A stretch of DNA of 64,000 nucleotides from Veillonella nakazawae (GTDB lineage: Bacteria; Bacillota; Negativicutes; Veillonellales; Veillonellaceae), in NCBI RefSeq assembly GCF_013393365.1, contig NZ_AP022321.1:964001-1028000 (forward strand). Direction: 5' to 3'. Shown here piece after piece: positions 30,290-38,201 of the stretch. Position numbers and translations under genes: made by a program. Each line of letters starts with the position of its first letter. The first letter of the stretch is position 1. The notes beneath the pieces were generated by a model. That model worked only from the letters and a program-made list of their open reading frames with translations, searched no databases and was not told where the DNA came from.

Positions 30290-32468
30290 TCATCGAGATA
30301 GCAAAAATGATGGACTCTTCAATGATGTAAATGATGTTAATGGGAACAGTAATGTTTTAACCCATAGCCAATGGGCACATATTATATTGGGTTCTATAAT
30401 TATGGGTACAATATTAGGCTATGGTCAGTATTATCCAGTACTTAATCAGATGCACTACATCTTTGCTATAGGCATAGCCATTATAGGTGTCAGTGTTTTT
30501 AAAGCTTTACAATCGTCTGATTGGTGGTGTTCACTTGGTAAGTTAATAGTTTTAGTGTCTCTTTTTGTAGGACTATCGTATTATCAAACAGATTTACGGA
30601 TTATACATTTCAATAGTTATACATCATATTATTTACAGCAAGAAGGGGAATACCTTTGTACAGTTCTTGCTGCTCCTGAAAAAGTAAATTTGAATGGACA
30701 GGAGTATTACAAATATAGTATTGCAATTCATGGCCTACATCCCTATAAAAATACTGCAAAAAATGACTATATTAAAGCACAAGGGCGTTTACAAGTTTAC
30801 TCAAAGGAATCTGCTACGAACTATCCAATACGACTAGGAGAATATGCAATTATTGAAGGTACACCAAAACCCTTATTTCTCATTGAAGAGGAAGGTCGTA
30901 TTAATCTAAGAGGCAGATATATGAGCTCGAATACTAGAGGTCGTATCTATGATGGTGTATATCGCACTGCTAGCAACAAAGATTTACAAAGGTTTTACTA
31001 TAAAGATACATTTTTTGACAAATTATTTAGGAAAGGCCTATTAATTGCTGGTGTATTACACGAATCTATAGATAAAAATATTGGTCACAATCTAGAGGGA
31101 CCGCAAAAAGTATTAGCTCAAGCGTTAGCTTTAGGTGGTCATTATAGTGAACTTGGAGAAGACCAAATGAAGGCTTTCTCTTATACAGGCCTTATCCATA
31201 TTTTATCCATATCAGGATCACATATTGCTTTACTGTTAGCACTTGTATACGGACTTGGACGACTCATTAAATTAAGAAAACGTACATGTTTAATTCTTGG
31301 TATTATAGTTGCTTGTATATATTGTGGTATCGTAGGCGGCGATGCACCTGTTCTACGTGCTACGATGATGAGCATACTCATGTGTATCGCCTATATAAAG
31401 GGACGACTATATCAGGCCAAACAAGCGCTATGTATATGTGCTATTCTATGCCTCATATATGATCCATTCTCTTTGTTTGATGTGAGCTTTCAGCTATCCT
31501 TTGGGGCGACTTATGGATTGCTCATATGGGGAAAGGTATTATACGAACGGATACAATGGCTGCCTAGATGGTTAAAAATGCCGCTCGTATTATGTGTGTC
31601 GGCCCAATTATTAATTTTACCGTTACAGCTCTATTACTTTCACTATATTAGCATTGCTAGTTTATTAGCAGCTTGTATAGTAGCGCCCCTATTAGATATA
31701 TCTATAGTTTTAATATTTGTAAGTACTTTAGTCAGTTACGTATTTTCTATATCGTTAATGTGGTCTTTATTAGATGTACTATTGCGTATATCTTTATATT
31801 TAAATCATGTGTTAGGTCGTAGTGGCAGTCTACTATGGCTTGGTATGATGCATCCTTATTGTGCTTATATATATTATGTGCTATTAGGTTTATTTACGTA
31901 CTTTTTGACGCATAGAAAAAGATATACTGTACATATAGTAATATCATTATCTTTAATGATTTTAACCTTTGGCGCTTCCTATTATGTTACGCAGCACCAT
32001 AAGGAAACATTAGTTCATTATATTCCAATGAAGCAATGCAATGTATTGCTTTGTATAGAACCTAATCATGAAGGGGCTCATCTATTAATTGATGCGCCAG
32101 ACCATATTAAAACGACGCCTAACGAAAGGCTTGTCAATCAAGCTATAAGGGCATATGGTGTGAATCCAAAAGTTGTAAAGGTAGACTATTTTCATAGTAA
32201 CGGATCTGCAAAAACAATATATAAAAATAGTATGAAAGAAATCGATGTATATAATGGACAAAGAGGAGAAAAAAATCTAAAATTAAATGATAAGATTAAT
32301 ACATTATTTATTACGAGTCGATCTAGTTCAATGAATGAAATTGGCAGATTACTGCCGCATAATATAGTTCTATTTGGCAGTCCACATGGGGCTTTACGCG
32401 ATGTGGACCCATCATCAGAATATATGTATATTATGGGGTACAGTTTTATTGAGGATATGTATCTGTGA
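30243..32468 (+). CDS. comEC: ComEC/Rec2 DNA channel with degenerate C-terminal domain
   Basis: Inner-membrane channel for uptake of single-stranded transforming DNA. The ~741-aa product has N-terminal helices and an OB-like DUF4131 part (~50-240), the Competence domain at ~290-560 with the hallmark LSISGSHIALL, GGDAPVLRATMM and DVSFQLSFGATYG, and a C-terminal region (~588-741) at the position of the metallo-beta-lactamase-like nuclease. There, LLIDAP matches the family's LIDGG strand but the HxHxDH zinc motif is replaced by DYFHSNGSA. The start used is TTG 30243, with AAGGGGG upstream; no in-frame ATG lies near. Confidence 0.9.
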   Translation: MVTAYLRRLKTKLQFSHRDSKNDGLFNDVNDVNGNSNVLTHSQWAHIILGSIIMGTILGYGQYYPVLNQMHYIFAIGIAIIGVSVFKALQSSDWWCSLGKLIVLVSLFVGLSYYQTDLRIIHFNSYTSYYLQQEGEYLCTVLAAPEKVNLNGQEYYKYSIAIHGLHPYKNTAKNDYIKAQGRLQVYSKESATNYPIRLGEYAIIEGTPKPLFLIEEEGRINLRGRYMSSNTRGRIYDGVYRTASNKDLQRFYYKDTFFDKLFRKGLLIAGVLHESIDKNIGHNLEGPQKVLAQALALGGHYSELGEDQMKAFSYTGLIHILSISGSHIALLLALVYGLGRLIKLRKRTCLILGIIVACIYCGIVGGDAPVLRATMMSILMCIAYIKGRLYQAKQALCICAILCLIYDPFSLFDVSFQLSFGATYGLLIWGKVLYERIQWLPRWLKMPLVLCVSAQLLILPLQLYYFHYISIASLLAACIVAPLLDISIVLIFVSTLVSYVFSISLMWSLLDVLLRISLYLNHVLGRSGSLLWLGMMHPYCAYIYYVLLGLFTYFLTHRKRYTVHIVISLSLMILTFGASYYVTQHHKETLVHYIPMKQCNVLLCIEPNHEGAHLLIDAPDHIKTTPNERLVNQAIRAYGVNPKVVKVDYFHSNGSAKTIYKNSMKEIDVYNGQRGEKNLKLNDKINTLFITSRSSSMNEIGRLLPHNIVLFGSPHGALRDVDPSSEYMYIMGYSFIEDMYL

Positions 32469-32479
32469 AAGGAGGATGT

Positions 32480-33457
32480 ATGGCTGAAATTAAACTCATT
32501 TATGGCGATGAGCCACAATTAATTGAAGAAGAAAAACGTAAATTTTTAAGTGCCTATCCTGACCTTCCAGTAACAGTATTAGATGATGAAGCTGGGCCAC
32601 AGAAGATAAGTGAAAAACTATGTGAAGACTCTCTTTTTGGTGATCAAAAGGTATTTTGCTTAGTGAATTTACCTATTATTCGTAAAAGCGGTAAAAATAG
32701 TGATGCCTGGATTCCATTGTATGAACTCCTCATGGAATATAATGGGGATAATCCTATAGTTTTGATTTATCATGATATGATTGATAAACGCATCAAGCAG
32801 AATAAAGAGATTTTAGATAAAATACCAAATCATCAATGTAAGCGCCTTGAAGGGGCAGACCTAGTGATGTGGATTCGTCAATATTGTACATCTAATGGAT
32901 TTAAAATGACCCCTGATGCACAAGAATATGTAGCTCATCTCATCGAATTGTGGCAAGATGTACCAGTTTCTTTCATGCGAACCGAATTTGACCGTTATTT
33001 CTTGCAAATTACAGGCGATAAAGTCATTACCAAAGAGTTTCTCGAAGAAAATGGTAGTGATTATGGAGCTAAAAATATTTTTACCTTTAAAGAGGCTTTG
33101 TTAAAACGAGATACTGATACATTACTTGAACTATTTCCGTTTATGTTCGGTTATAAAGAATTAGATCGTGCTATGAGCTACATTGAGGGGCAATTACGTT
33201 TGCAATTACTAGTCAGCGAATGTCGCCAAGCGGGAATGTCTGTTCAAGCTATTCAAAACCTATGTAAGGACCATGATTCGTCATTTAAACCATATCCAAT
33301 TAAGTTAGCTTATGAGGCGAGTCCTAGAATTTCGATTAAGGCGCTACGAGCTTTATTAAAAGGGCTCTATGAGATTATTTTGGATAGCCGTAGCAGCAAG
33401 GGCGATATTTGGCGATTTAGAGATTTATGTATTACCTATTGTGGGTATAAAGGATAA
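32480..33457 (+). CDS. holA: DNA polymerase III delta subunit
   Basis: Clamp-loader delta subunit that opens the beta clamp. The 325-aa product begins MAEIKLIYGDEPQLIEEEKR, contains the truncated AAA+ fold (EKLCEDSLFGDQKVFCLVN, KRLEGADLVMWIRQYC) and a C-terminal collar helix domain (SPRISIKALRALLKGLYEIILDSRS split). The start at 32480 has AAAGGAGG 7 bp upstream. It starts 11 bp after comEC, the usual comEC-holA neighbour relation of Firmicutes, and 2 bp before polC. Confidence 0.92.
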   Translation: MAEIKLIYGDEPQLIEEEKRKFLSAYPDLPVTVLDDEAGPQKISEKLCEDSLFGDQKVFCLVNLPIIRKSGKNSDAWIPLYELLMEYNGDNPIVLIYHDMIDKRIKQNKEILDKIPNHQCKRLEGADLVMWIRQYCTSNGFKMTPDAQEYVAHLIELWQDVPVSFMRTEFDRYFLQITGDKVITKEFLEENGSDYGAKNIFTFKEALLKRDTDTLLELFPFMFGYKELDRAMSYIEGQLRLQLLVSECRQAGMSVQAIQNLCKDHDSSFKPYPIKLAYEASPRISIKALRALLKGLYEIILDSRSSKGDIWRFRDLCITYCGYKG

Positions 33458-33459
33458 AA

Positions 33460-36400
33460 ATGAAAGTACGTTATCGTGTTGTACCAAAACAGAATAAGAA
33501 ATCATCCTTCTATGTAAACTGTCATAGCCAACATGTGACGATACAAGCTGCAGATTCTGCGTTTTCTACATTGCTTAGTTTGCGTGAAAGATTATCTGCA
33601 TGGTATAAGGAAAAAAATATTTCTTTTGATAATATTCCAACGAATACAGATACAGCTTGTTGTTTTGCCTGGAAGGTAGATACTGAAACAGGGGAAGGCT
33701 TAGATACCTATTATTATGGTGGTGGCTGTGGTGCTGGTGAATGGATTGAAGCGGCAGAAGCGCAACGTGAAGCTGAAGAGGCTAAAAACAAAGTGCCTAG
33801 AGGCAAGTCTTTTGCTGGTTATGACCAAGAAGATGAATATGATGATGTTGATGAAGATGATTTCGCTCCATTTGTAGAGGCTGTTGAGCTGGGCTACTTT
33901 AATAATAGTCCTGTCGTTGTATCTCGTTCTAATCAAACGGCTGCAGCATCTAGCAATAGTGATACTGTCGCATCTGTGAGCAGTACACCTAAAGCAAGTA
34001 AAGGTTTTGCTCCTAAAAGTACTACAAAATCTACTGCTAAAGGTAGTGAAGGGGATAGTAAATATCCTCGTCGTGCCCCCAAGGATGCTCCTACTGATGA
34101 AGGCATGATTTTAGGGCCTAAAATTGAGGGAGTTACCTCTAAAATTATGGGCACTTTGGATACGCCTAGTGTTATTTTTGAAGGTGTATTTGTTGGTCTA
34201 GATAAACGTGATACTAAGACTGGTAAAAGTATCGTTAACGGTAGCATCGTAGACGATACGAATAGCATCAAATTTATTAAGTTTGCGAATAGCCCTGAAG
34301 AAGGGGATGCGCTACTTAAACAATTAAAAGGTTTACAACGTGTACGCGTACAAGGTAGCGTCAGCTTTGATGATCGATTTGATAAGGATTATATCTTATC
34401 TATTCGAAGCATTGAAGCTATGGAAACTAATAGCGTGGAGCGCACTGAAAACCGTCCAGACTCCCGTGTAGAGCTGCACTTGCATACTAAGATGAGTGAT
34501 AAGGATGCCCTTGTATCTGTTAAAGACCTATTTAAAACAGTAAAAAAATGGGGTCATCCTGCGGTAGCTATTACAGATCACGGCGTTGTACAAGCATTTC
34601 CAGAAGCTCAAGCTCTTGGTAAAGAGTTGGGCGTTAAGGTTATCTACGGTGTAGAAGGTTATCTCATTGATGATGAAATTGTTGCTCGTGATGAAGAGCC
34701 TGTAGTAGATAAGAAGAAGAAAAAAGAAAAAGATAAACGTTACCATATTATCTTATTAGCTAAAAATATGGTAGGTTTGCGCAATCTGTACAAGATGATA
34801 TCTATTTCTCACCTTGAACACTATAAGATACGCCCTCGGTTGCCTCGTTCTGTTATTGAAGAACATCGTGAAGGTATCATCATCGGTTCTGCTTGTGAAG
34901 CCGGGGAACTTATGCAGTCCATCGTCCGTGGTGCTACAAAGGAAGAATTACTAGAGGTAGCCTCTTTCTACGACTATCTTGAAATTCAGCCACATACGAA
35001 CAATATGTTCTTGGTTCGTAAAGGCCTTATGCCAGATGAGCAAGCTCTTATCGATATGAATAAGACAGTTATCGAATTAGGGGAAGCTTTAAATAAACCA
35101 GTATGTGCTACTTGTGACGTTCATTATTTAACACCAGAAGAAAAGATTTACCGTGAAATCATGTTAACGGCATGTGGTTATCCAGATGCGGATGAACAAC
35201 CAGATTTGCACTTACGTACTACAGATGAAATGTTGGCGTCTTTCCCGTATTTAAGTGAAGAAAAGGCTTATGAAGTAGTTGTTACTAATACTCGTGCAAT
35301 TAATGATAGCATCGAAGATATTAAACCAGTTCCAGATGGCACATATTCACCAAAGATTGAAGGTGCCGATGAAGCTTTCACAGAAATGTGTTATAGAAAT
35401 GCGAAAGCCATTTATGGTGATCCATTGCCTCGCGTAGTACAAGAGCGACTTGATTATGAATTAGACTGTATTATCTCCAATGGTTACGGCGTATTGTATT
35501 ACATTGCTCATAAGCTGGTAAAAAAATCACTTGATGATGGGTATCTCGTAGGTTCCCGTGGTTCTGTAGGTTCTTCCTTTGCAGCAACCATGTCTGAAAT
35601 TACAGAGGTAAATCCATTACCGCCACATTATATATGCCCTAATTGTAAGCATTCTGAATTCTTTGAAAAGGGCGAATACGCAGGTGGCTTTGACTTACCA
35701 CGTAAAGATTGTCCAGAGTGTGGTCATGCGCTACAAACTAATGGCCATGATATTCCGTTTGCCATCTTCCTTGGTTTCGAAGGTGATAAGGTTCCAGATA
35801 TTGACCTTAACTTCTCCGGTGATTACCAAGCAAAGGCTCACAAATATACGGAAGAATTATTTGGTCGAGATAATGTATTTAAAGCTGGTACCATCGGTAC
35901 AATAGCTGATAAAACTGCTTTTGGTTATGTTAAAAAATATGCAGAAATTCGAGATATTCAAGCTCGTAGTGGTTTCTTTGAACATTTAGCAAAAGGCTTT
36001 ACCAATGTTAAGAATACTACTGGACAACATCCTGGCGGTATCATGGTATGTCCTCGCGATATGGATGTGCATCACTTTACACCTATACAACATCCAGCGA
36101 ATAAGAAGGAAAGTGGTGTATTAACAACACACTTTGACTATCACTCTATCGAAGGCCGTATGACTAAGCTTGATATCTTGGGGCATGATGATCCGACTAT
36201 CATTCGTATGCTAGAGGATTTGACCGGTATAGATGCTAAGACAATCCCATTTGATGATCCAAAGACATTGAGCTTATTCTCTTCTACAGAGGGGATTGGT
36301 TTAACACCTGAGCAATTACAAGGTGACCAAGTAGCCAGTTTGGCTGTGCCAGAATGTGGTACGAAGTTCGTACGGGGCATGCTGGAAGACTCTCGTCCTC

Positions 36401-37251
36401 AAACATTCTCTGACTTGGTTCGTATCTCTGGTTTCTCTCATGGTACAAACGTATGGCTCGACAATGCGCAAGACCTCATTAAAAATGGTACTTGTAAATT
36501 GAACGAAGCCATTTCTACCCGTGACGATGTAATGAACTTCTTAATCCATCGCGGTATGGATAGAAAGCATAGCTTCTTCGTTATGGAAAACGTACGTAAA
36601 GGGAAGGGCATAGAAAAACGGAATAAACAAGGTCAAGCTATTACGGAATTTGAAGCTGAAATGCGGGAAAATAATATTCCTGAATGGTTCATTGAATCTT
36701 GTAAAAAGATTTCCTATCTATTCCCACGGGCCCATGCTGTAGCTTATGTAATGATGGCCTTCCGTATCGCATGGTTTAAGGTGTACCATCCATTGGCTTT
36801 CTATGCAGCCTACTTCTCCATTCGTGCCAAGGCCTTTGATTTGCGCATTATGACGGGTGACCTTAAAACGCAAATGACTGAGTTCAATCGTATTAAAGCT
36901 CTTGATCGTGGTGCCAGTCCTAAAGATAAGGACCTTATGAGTGCCTTAGAAGTATCTATGGAAATGTATCAACGGGGTTATCGTTTTGTTAATGTAGATA
37001 TTCAACACTCTGAAGCTAGACGCTTTAGCATTAAAGATGGTGCTCTATTACCACCATTCTTAGCTATTGACTCCTTAGGTGAAACAGTAGCTGATGCTAT
37101 CGTAGCTGAACGAGAAGAACGTCCGTTTACATCTCTAAAAGACTTGCAACGTCGTTGTAAAGTATCTAACACCATCATTGATCTTATGAAAGAACTCAAA
37201 TGCTGTGGTGAACTACCTGAAGACGAACAAATGTCACTCTTTGGAGCATAA
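33460..37251 (+). CDS. polC: PolC-type DNA polymerase III alpha, apparently without exonuclease domain
   Basis: Main replicative polymerase of low-GC Firmicutes. Of 1263 aa: a divergent N-terminal part (1-230) with acidic and Ser/Thr/Ala-rich linkers; OB domain ~235-325; PHP domain starting VELHLHTKMSD at ~337; zinc finger CPNCK...CPECG; catalytic palm with PDIDLNFSGD at ~779; TTGQHPGGIMV; and C-terminal clamp motif QMSLF. Normal PolC (~1430-1440 aa) has a ~170-180-aa DEDD exonuclease inserted in PHP; here GYLIDDEIVARDEEP joins KRYHIILLAKN through a 20-residue Lys-rich linker and no DVETTG motif exists. Proofreading must then come from another protein. Confidence 0.95.
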   Translation: MKVRYRVVPKQNKKSSFYVNCHSQHVTIQAADSAFSTLLSLRERLSAWYKEKNISFDNIPTNTDTACCFAWKVDTETGEGLDTYYYGGGCGAGEWIEAAEAQREAEEAKNKVPRGKSFAGYDQEDEYDDVDEDDFAPFVEAVELGYFNNSPVVVSRSNQTAAASSNSDTVASVSSTPKASKGFAPKSTTKSTAKGSEGDSKYPRRAPKDAPTDEGMILGPKIEGVTSKIMGTLDTPSVIFEGVFVGLDKRDTKTGKSIVNGSIVDDTNSIKFIKFANSPEEGDALLKQLKGLQRVRVQGSVSFDDRFDKDYILSIRSIEAMETNSVERTENRPDSRVELHLHTKMSDKDALVSVKDLFKTVKKWGHPAVAITDHGVVQAFPEAQALGKELGVKVIYGVEGYLIDDEIVARDEEPVVDKKKKKEKDKRYHIILLAKNMVGLRNLYKMISISHLEHYKIRPRLPRSVIEEHREGIIIGSACEAGELMQSIVRGATKEELLEVASFYDYLEIQPHTNNMFLVRKGLMPDEQALIDMNKTVIELGEALNKPVCATCDVHYLTPEEKIYREIMLTACGYPDADEQPDLHLRTTDEMLASFPYLSEEKAYEVVVTNTRAINDSIEDIKPVPDGTYSPKIEGADEAFTEMCYRNAKAIYGDPLPRVVQERLDYELDCIISNGYGVLYYIAHKLVKKSLDDGYLVGSRGSVGSSFAATMSEITEVNPLPPHYICPNCKHSEFFEKGEYAGGFDLPRKDCPECGHALQTNGHDIPFAIFLGFEGDKVPDIDLNFSGDYQAKAHKYTEELFGRDNVFKAGTIGTIADKTAFGYVKKYAEIRDIQARSGFFEHLAKGFTNVKNTTGQHPGGIMVCPRDMDVHHFTPIQHPANKKESGVLTTHFDYHSIEGRMTKLDILGHDDPTIIRMLEDLTGIDAKTIPFDDPKTLSLFSSTEGIGLTPEQLQGDQVASLAVPECGTKFVRGMLEDSRPQTFSDLVRISGFSHGTNVWLDNAQDLIKNGTCKLNEAISTRDDVMNFLIHRGMDRKHSFFVMENVRKGKGIEKRNKQGQAITEFEAEMRENNIPEWFIESCKKISYLFPRAHAVAYVMMAFRIAWFKVYHPLAFYAAYFSIRAKAFDLRIMTGDLKTQMTEFNRIKALDRGASPKDKDLMSALEVSMEMYQRGYRFVNVDIQHSEARRFSIKDGALLPPFLAIDSLGETVADAIVAEREERPFTSLKDLQRRCKVSNTIIDLMKELKCCGELPEDEQMSLFGA

Positions 37252-37374: not shown

Positions 37375-37686
37375 ATGATAAGAAAATTATTGAAATTTCT
37401 AGGAATTAATTCATCAGATAGTAATATTACTAAAGAACCGAAAATGAAATCAGAAGAAAATGGAACTGGATCTAATATTACTAAGGAACGACAAAATCAA
37501 CCTATAGAGATTGAATTTTGGGACATTGAGGCGGAGGATGTTCCTGAGTTAGAAGAATCAGATATTCCAGGTGTATACTTTAACGAATTCCGAGAATATG
37601 TTGATGAAGAAGGGAATGTGCTATCCCCATCAGAGGTGGATGCAATACGGTATAAAGACGATTACGAGGACGATTATTATAGATAG
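37375..37686 (+). CDS. Unknown acidic protein
   Basis: A 103-aa soluble protein not recognised. The first 12 residues are basic-hydrophobic (MIRKLLKFLGIN). A low-complexity part follows with a repeated (S/D)SNITKE element, and the last 60 residues are strongly acidic with GVYFNEFREYVDEEGNVLS and a DDYEDDYYR tail. A GGGAG lies about 9 bp before the ATG. It is followed by another unknown gene. The pair looks like accessory cargo; acidic small proteins of this kind are often immunity proteins, but that is only a guess. Confidence 0.5.
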   Translation: MIRKLLKFLGINSSDSNITKEPKMKSEENGTGSNITKERQNQPIEIEFWDIEAEDVPELEESDIPGVYFNEFREYVDEEGNVLSPSEVDAIRYKDDYEDDYYR

Positions 37687-37742
37687 AAATTATTAGAGTG
37701 TCATATTTATATTGTTTTTATTTTGTAACGAGTTGGTTAATT

Positions 37743-38201
37743 ATGAGAGTTCCGATATATGAAGCTGTAGCTCACTATAAAAAGAATAATGAGTTACCTT
37801 ATACAGAGTATTTTGGCCTAGGCTTTTTTTCTAAATTATCATTAGCAGAAAAGGCATTAACTGAGTCAAAAAATTTGATAGGTTTTTCTGATTTGGCTGA
37901 TGATTCATTTTCGATAACAACTCATTATTTAAATGATTGTGCGCATATAGGTGATGATGTTGGTTATGAAATCATAAACAACAAAATTTATGGTGTTTGG
38001 TATGATTATGATATAGATGATTATTATACATGTTCAGGATACATAGGTTTATTTAGTACTTTAAAATATGCAGAGAAAGCAATAGAGTGGTATAAAACCT
38101 GGGATATATTTAAAGTACATGGCATAGAGTGTTTAGGAATAGCTACTATCACTCTTAATTTAAAGGGATGGACTGAAGGTTTTATAACAGTATATGATTA
38201 A
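37743..38201 (+). CDS. Unknown soluble protein
   Basis: A 152-aa protein from ATG 37743 (an in-frame upstream start at 37698 would add a hydrophobic 15 residues). It has two similar segments: SKLSLAEKALTESKNLIGF and STLKYAEKAIEWYKTW, each preceded by a Tyr/Gly-rich strand (EYFGLGFF; SGYIGLF), suggesting an internal duplication. No family recognised. It lies alone with the acidic gene between the polC and poxB units. Confidence 0.5.
   Translation: MRVPIYEAVAHYKKNNELPYTEYFGLGFFSKLSLAEKALTESKNLIGFSDLADDSFSITTHYLNDCAHIGDDVGYEIINNKIYGVWYDYDIDDYYTCSGYIGLFSTLKYAEKAIEWYKTWDIFKVHGIECLGIATITLNLKGWTEGFITVYD

Follow-up and report, generated by a model that had tools for sequence, protein, structure and literature searches.

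The PolC-type alpha subunit of DNA polymerase III encoded in the window, i.e. the whole stretch of 64,000 nucleotides of Veillonella nakazawae analysed here, is a natural, inherited form that lacks the DEDDh exonuclease (Exo) inserted in other PolCs; the absence is lineage-wide, and is not a deletion in a single gene. The chances seem to us evenly poised for our overall account, in which this inherited exo-less PolC has passed proofreading to its PHP domain in cis and, in the Veillonellaceae, also to a tailed exonuclease in trans. The DEDDh exonuclease that other PolCs carry at the loop separating PHP ligands 5 and 6 is missing across the Negativicutes, while by sequence the polymerase core and the clamp motif are kept; in this account the PHP domain, with its complete trinuclear-zinc ligand set, would proofread in cis as does that of M. 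tuberculosis DnaE1. In the Veillonellaceae, a free DEDDh exonuclease would also proofread in trans, holding the clamp by a QMSFF-type tail and sitting on it beside the QMSLF tail of PolC. The PHP site may be free to decay in bacteria with such a tailed exonuclease, the VA137 group of Veillonella being a case in point.

The polC gene of the window

The features of the polC region are collected in Table 1. A comEC-like gene lies upstream of the holA-like gene, and downstream of polC there are two ORFs on the same (+) strand (37375-37686, 103 aa; 37698-38201, 167 aa) with no Pfam match at E<=0.001.

Table 1. Features of the polC region, with positions counted along the window
Feature	Position	Strand	Basis or remark
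polC, exo-less PolC-type DNA polymerase III alpha subunit, 1263 aa	33460..37251	+	ORF and NCBIfam
PHP domain, residues 338-510, one Pfam PF02811 match	34471..34989	+	Pfam
Lys/Glu-rich loop, 29 residues, 400-428	34657..34743	+	sequence GYLIDDEIVARDEEPVVDKKKKKEKDKRY, between ligands Glu399 and His429
PHP ligands Asp553 (position 8) and His555 (position 9)	35116..35124	+	PolC alignment; beyond the Pfam match
Palm motif PDIDLNFSGD, residues 779-788	35794..35823	+	translation
QMSLF clamp-binding motif (sequence-predicted), C-terminal, residues 1257-1261	37228..37242	+	translation
holA-like gene (DNA polymerase III delta subunit)	32465..33457	+	Pfam PF21694, PF06144; 2 bases before polC

The protein passes two NCBIfam PolC equivalog models (PRK00448, 1468.5 bits against a cut-off of 873; TIGR01405, 1347.3 bits against 1043.45), and its main match to them begins after the Exo segment, at profile positions 604 of 1445 and 371 of 1211, respectively. 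By these models, its palm aspartates and its C-terminal clamp motif it is a PolC, from which the inserted DEDDh exonuclease is absent. An earlier note on this DNA had proposed that absence, and it is borne out by the uninterrupted PHP domain, by a search for Pfam RNase_T that returned nothing at E<=1, by the 29-residue loop and by the main PolC profile match lying past Exo; the other Pfam domains of the protein are DNA_pol3_alpha, the finger domain and HHH_6. At the ligand 5-6 loop, other PolCs carry about 213 residues that include the DEDDh exonuclease, and the spacing between the two ligands is 211-216 residues in 34 of the 35 exo-containing rows, against 29 in the window PolC; the remaining row (L243), counted among the 35 with a dead Exo, has 198. 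Three DEDDh motif patterns, all of which were found in each of the three exo-containing PolCs tried, gave no match in the window PolC, so that a remnant or displaced DEDD motif in the protein, for which the earlier note had allowed, was rejected. The Lys-rich linker was also rejected as a remnant of Exo, as 115 of the 139 exo-less PolCs carry 12-18 residues at the same place; its KKKKK version was seen in Veillonella only, among the sequences printed. In an AlphaFold2 model of residues 225-1263 (mean pLDDT 72.6), residues 406-424 fall below a pLDDT of 50, and the model is weak except in the OB and PHP domains and the C-terminal helices; its polymerase part was not used for any inference.

The palm motif PDIDLNFSGD and the clamp motif QMSLF are both present in the translation, intact as the earlier note had stated. 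PDIDLNF stands at the palm position in all of the aligned rows (120 exo-less and 35 exo-containing), and a clamp-type motif is found within the last 15 residues of 137 of 139 exo-less PolCs. These 139 correspond to 129 distinct sequences, or 85 clusters at 88% identity, and leave out L049 (a truncated PolC), L384 and L385, as well as L335-L337, which come from the same genomes as L018, L021 and L019. The best solved relative is the PolC of G. kaustophilus (3f2b), which aligns with query residues 238-1262 and has a similar core, palm and fingers. Unlike the window PolC, the natural Geobacillus enzyme carries Exo, and it has Asn at PHP position 8 where the window PolC has Asp. Where Exo would stand, the 3f2b chain reads GSGSG, which we take to be the mark of an engineered deletion.

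Distribution and origin of the exo-less form

The absence of Exo is not peculiar to the window protein, and is found across the class. The best-segment identity to the window PolC is 98% for Veillonella infantium and 97% for both V. parvula SKV38 and V. rogosae, and since these encode the same exo-less form, a sequencing artefact, the other objection that the earlier note had foreseen, is excluded. The A-rich loop is an error-prone context, in which an apparent loss through faulty sequencing or assembly might arise; this explanation has been refuted by the relatives and retains virtually no probability, as 53 of the 54 loci found with the window PolC as query share the form (52 of them read as sequence; L049, with a broken frame, by match length only) and it is also seen across the class. 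The 54th locus, L057, is labelled Bacilli and has Exo. A PolC match at E<=1e-100 was obtained in 119 of 120 Negativicutes genomes, and none of the matches listed reaches into Exo. The main matches start at profile positions 367-381, just past Exo, in ORFs of 1093-1350 aa, the exceptions being the broken PolC of G096 (486) and a short second copy in G111 (563). The RNase_T matches listed for the 120 genomes, a list that stops short of the weakest ones, all fall in ORFs of 1012 aa or less, and the alignment with other Negativicutes PolCs, which the earlier note had suggested, gave loops of 5-33 residues between PHP ligands 5 and 6 in those read. Second PolC copies also occur: in family f10 they are full-length in G067 (C5 and C16), and shorter or broken ones were seen in G059 (C9 and C10), G075 (C1) and G111 (C1).

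In an even draw of 149 genomes from the phylum, PolC was found in 113, of which 42 have Exo (41 in one ORF, plus G260, which is split over two contigs and was counted as exo-containing by its RNase_T match), one has a dead Exo (G244), 66 are exo-less and four are cut by contig ends and unclassifiable (G160, G189, G196 and G234). The exo-less share is therefore 66 of 109 classifiable PolC genomes, where the 66 were called by match start and ORF length, and 36 + 4 more of them were read as sequence. The exo-less architecture itself is already known: it was reported in 2013 for Clostridia and Negativicutes, at 6% of PolCs and 16% in the group with PolC and DnaE1 (PMC3919608). Our higher share probably reflects even sampling across families. 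The exo-less PolC described there resembles the window PolC in its uninterrupted PHP domain, in keeping the polymerase and HhH parts and in its occurrence in bacteria with DnaE1, which is also present in the nearest compared genome, G001 (26% of sampled words in common with the window).

Loss of Exo can be followed in family f45, in which L244 and L245 keep Exo with its motifs. In L243 (G244:C143), 198 residues remain and the catalytic motifs are gone (VVLALATTG and ALPNPGSGW against VVxDIETTG and VAHNAxFD), and its congener L242 (G215:C164) retains a 39-residue remnant; together they show an apparent stepwise loss of Exo within one genus. In a tree of 95 PolC core sequences, from which L243 was omitted because it is nearly identical to L242, the distribution of Exo calls for 7 changes, and well-supported branches force at least 4 of these; the tree is unrooted, and such counts cannot separate gain from loss. 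The clade holding the Negativicutes comprises 34 rows, all of them exo-less. This uniformity in an unrooted tree, together with the lack of an exonuclease at the same loop of DnaE (PMC5636811), would also suit an ancestor of the Negativicutes PolC without Exo, the domain having been inserted later in other lineages. We consider this quite improbable, as the decaying Exo of L243 and the remnant of L242 show loss elsewhere, and, with 4-7 changes needed, it is easier to envisage Exo being lost several times than being inserted several times at one loop.

The PHP metal site and possible proofreading by PolC

Within its Pfam match the PHP domain of the window PolC has the ligands H340, H342, D349, H374, E399, H429 and C479 (MAFFT alignment of PolCs), and with the two ligands beyond that match the nine read HHDHEHCDH, a complete set that agrees with the motif HHDHEH[C/H]DH given for PHP-type proofreaders (PMC12926913). 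The same set occurs in 133 of the 139 exo-less PolCs (123 of 129 distinct sequences; 84 of 85 clusters at 88% identity) and in 32 of the 35 exo-containing ones, the other three having HHDHEHCNH. The expectation that the site would be better conserved where Exo is missing was not borne out by these numbers (133/139 versus 32/35), and since it is also complete in most exo-containing PolCs, its conservation is not specific to the absence of Exo and may be structural, in keeping with the effects of D23N and D226N on stability and polymerase activity described below.

The nine-ligand PHP site proofreads in M. tuberculosis DnaE1, in which the changes D23N and D226N abolished the exonuclease fully and lowered polymerase activity and stability (PMC5636811). 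In the alignment with the DnaE1 structure 5lew, Asp349 and Asp553 of the query fall on chain positions 17 and 220, which by a single offset of six correspond to Asp23 and Asp226. DnaE1 in 5lew, whose alignment with the window PolC begins at query residue 335, likewise has all nine ligands, and beside the site the window PolC has 29 residues between ligands 5 and 6 where DnaE1 has a 29-residue loop, 77-105, by that paper's own definition; the former is a PolC known by its sequence, whereas the latter is a DnaE1 with shown activity. The same source places the DEDD exonuclease of PolC in a loop lining the PHP groove, and records that no PHP exonuclease was seen in G. kaustophilus PolC, in which one PHP ligand is changed (PMC5636811). 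We found no exonuclease assay of the PHP domain of any exo-less PolC in the literature, and from the ligands we infer that the domain may cleave. The earlier note had concluded that the enzyme should replicate without its own proofreading; its premise, the absence of Exo, holds, and the conclusion is overstated in view of the complete site, by analogy with DnaE1.

The genomes in which DnaQ-type proteins are scarcest bear on this point. From the matches listed in the first surveys, 20 genomes with a PolC match and no RNase_T were chosen (9 Negativicutes and 11 others); on re-search at E<=10, 19 of them had nothing over the cut-off and G019 did, so that single negatives of the first surveys are unsafe. 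Matches below the cut-off appeared in four of the 19 (G139, E 0.02 and 0.18; G152, 0.08; G176, 0.23; G212, 9.9), and a profile of 15 DnaQ proteins added a broken remnant in G175 and E values of 0.10 and 0.14 in G180 and G183. The remnant in G175 (C1:438216-438454) is a broken DnaQ-type gene in a genome with an exo-less PolC. Apart from G096, whose PolC is broken, all 18 of these genomes encode a PolC with a complete PHP site, including the single-contig assemblies G044, G135, G139 and G212. If these bacteria proofread at all, the PHP domain would be the sole candidate left by the RNase_T and DnaQ profile searches. The complete sites of these 18 PolCs and the precedent of M. tuberculosis DnaE1 (PMC5636811) would also suit a rival in which PHP alone proofreads in every exo-less PolC and the tailed exonuclease is a repair enzyme outside replication. 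We regard that explanation as somewhat unlikely, as it is at odds with the VA137 group of Veillonella, which keeps PolC although two of its PHP ligands have been changed in the way that abolishes the M. tuberculosis exonuclease.

This group comprises six exo-less PolCs with HHNHEHCNH, from Veillonella sp. VA137, CHU740, VA139, VA142, 3310 and 3891 (loci L018-L022 and L051), in which Exo is missing and Asn stands at PHP positions 3 and 8. The three that were printed read KNALV and GNVHY, against KDALV and CDVHY in the query, i.e. the Asp-to-Asn changes that abolish the PHP exonuclease of M. tuberculosis (PMC5636811). The change counts as a single event, confined to 1 of the 85 clusters at 88% identity, so that its link to the tailed exonuclease is anecdotal. 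The same change would fit a fair rival, which we nevertheless hold to be unlikely, namely that PolC is an accessory or strand-limited, unproofread minor polymerase beside DnaE1, whose intact PHP domain serves accurate bulk synthesis. A possibility of this kind has been raised for bacteria with PolC and DnaE1 (PMC3919608), and the DnaE1 site reads HHDHEHCDH in all 30 genomes read, which include Veillonella and genomes without an RNase_T match. Against it stand the occurrence of PolC in 119 of the 120 Negativicutes genomes and the conservation of its palm and its clamp-type ends; among the 149 genomes drawn elsewhere in the phylum, a PolC match at E<=1e-100 is missing from 36. We retain as the preferred account that PHP would be the general substitute for Exo, to which the tailed exonuclease was added in the Veillonellaceae.

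The free exonuclease with a clamp-type tail

The earlier note had also asked whether a stand-alone DnaQ-like protein exists, and the nearest compared genome does encode one. The RNase_T proteins of G001 are three: a UvrD-like helicase (L001), a 327-aa protein, presumably similar to KapD, and a 209-aa DEDDh protein (L002), which keeps the DEDDh residues and ends in QMSFF. The predicted structure of L002 matches DinG, E. coli epsilon and the Exo of PolC in its fold, and is confident to about residue 180, with the last nine residues weak (mean pLDDT 54). L002 missed all the NCBIfam epsilon cut-offs (PRK06195, 221 bits against 373; PRK05711, 36.5 against 196; TIGR01406, 37.1 against 222.7), and the possibility that it is an excised Exo of PolC was rejected, as it branches far from the PolC Exo domains in the tree.

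Among the Negativicutes, 60 loci gave an exonuclease match that could be used, and a clamp-type end was found in 9 of them, namely in all eight from Veillonellaceae (QMSFF in six; QDTFF and QDAFF in the VA137 group) and in L147, and in five of nine further top-scoring Negativicutes loci, all of the L147 type; the other 51 and four, respectively, have no tail. Outside the Negativicutes it was seen in none of the 26 loci of the exo-less kind; the counts were 0 of 19 for loci from exo-containing genomes and 1 of 6 for those from genomes without a PolC match. The final pattern used for these counts excludes L149 and L151, which end in EEIMDTLF, and also L280, L281, L312 and L324, which a looser pattern had flagged and none of which ends in a clamp motif. 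In a second survey by homology, covering the best 120 of 260 database matches to L002, a clamp-type end was present in 81 of the 90 closest homologues against 1 of the 30 distant ones, and the same motif in 4 of 22159 internal 8-residue windows. The 90 closest listed are, by their similarity, probably Veillonellaceae, one alone carrying the name; their tails include QMSFF (43), QTSFF (9), QLSFF (7), QTSLF (6) and others, and the nine misses are three short entries, the near-motifs QMSSF, EMSLF and EISLF (twice), and two others. The clamp consensus is given as QL[S/D]LF or QxxLF (PMC12309361), from which QMSFF departs at position 4, where Phe replaces Leu. Another DnaQ subfamily has QLSLW or QMSLW as its tail in 20 of 21 listed homologues of at least 66% identity (one named Acidaminococcus fermentans) and in 3 of 3 listed at 50-52%; 1 of the 96 lower ones has it, off the terminus.

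The conservation of the motif suggests that the tail binds the clamp, and the free exonuclease may edit replication errors; it could also serve repair. In E. coli epsilon (DnaQ) a clamp-type motif likewise follows the exonuclease domain, and the fold is common to both proteins at an identity of about 20%. In the Veillonellaceae protein, unlike in epsilon, the motif is the extreme C-terminus and there is no known polymerase-binding segment. We suggest tentatively, at a probability somewhat below even, that the Veillonellaceae rebuilt an epsilon-like arrangement, in which a tailed free exonuclease that did not come from Exo proofreads on the clamp of PolC, letting the PHP site of the VA137 subgroup be inactivated too, and that the Acidaminococcus type gained QLSLW on the other DnaQ subfamily. 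The tail seems to have arisen after Exo was already absent, because the whole class shares that absence, whereas the related family f3 and most other Negativicutes read have no tail. The tailed exonuclease is known from relatives of the window's organism, the nearest being G001.

Other exonucleases were met with in the same surveys. L303 and L304 (G162 and G199) and L327 (G145) are free exonucleases close to the Exo of PolC: outside their own trio their best partners among 146 rows are PolC Exo domains, at 44-50% identity, and the data allow a grouping of the PolC Exo domains without them (AU p 0.39). Among NCBIfam families, L303 scores highest with PRK06807 (189 bits) and next to it with PolC at 181. 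Two of the three stand in genomes with an exo-less PolC and one, ending in QTQLDLFG, in a genome without a PolC match; they are possibly excised PolC Exo domains. The helicase L001 (G001:C1:1862600-1866070) is UvrD/PcrA-like, of ~860 aa, with RNase_T inside the C-terminal helicase domain; by ORF length L070-L074, L076-L082 and L085-L089 are probably of the same kind, and the exonuclease parts of such helicases from families f1, f3 and f10 form one clade in the tree.

We found no description in the literature searched of the clamp tail, the dead-Exo intermediate or the PHP subgroup altered in two ligands; the intermediate, the clamp-tailed exonuclease and the altered subgroup are added here to what PMC3919608 describes. 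Exonuclease proofreading is usually regarded as part of every replicative polymerase. Whether PHP can proofread for PolC is put to a natural test in a class whose PolC is exo-less and in some genomes of which no DnaQ-type match exceeds the cut-off, and the Veillonella subgroup without Exo and with an altered PHP site provides a ready-made comparison. The clamp-tailed exonuclease offers a handle on the ways in which proofreading may shift from cis to trans.
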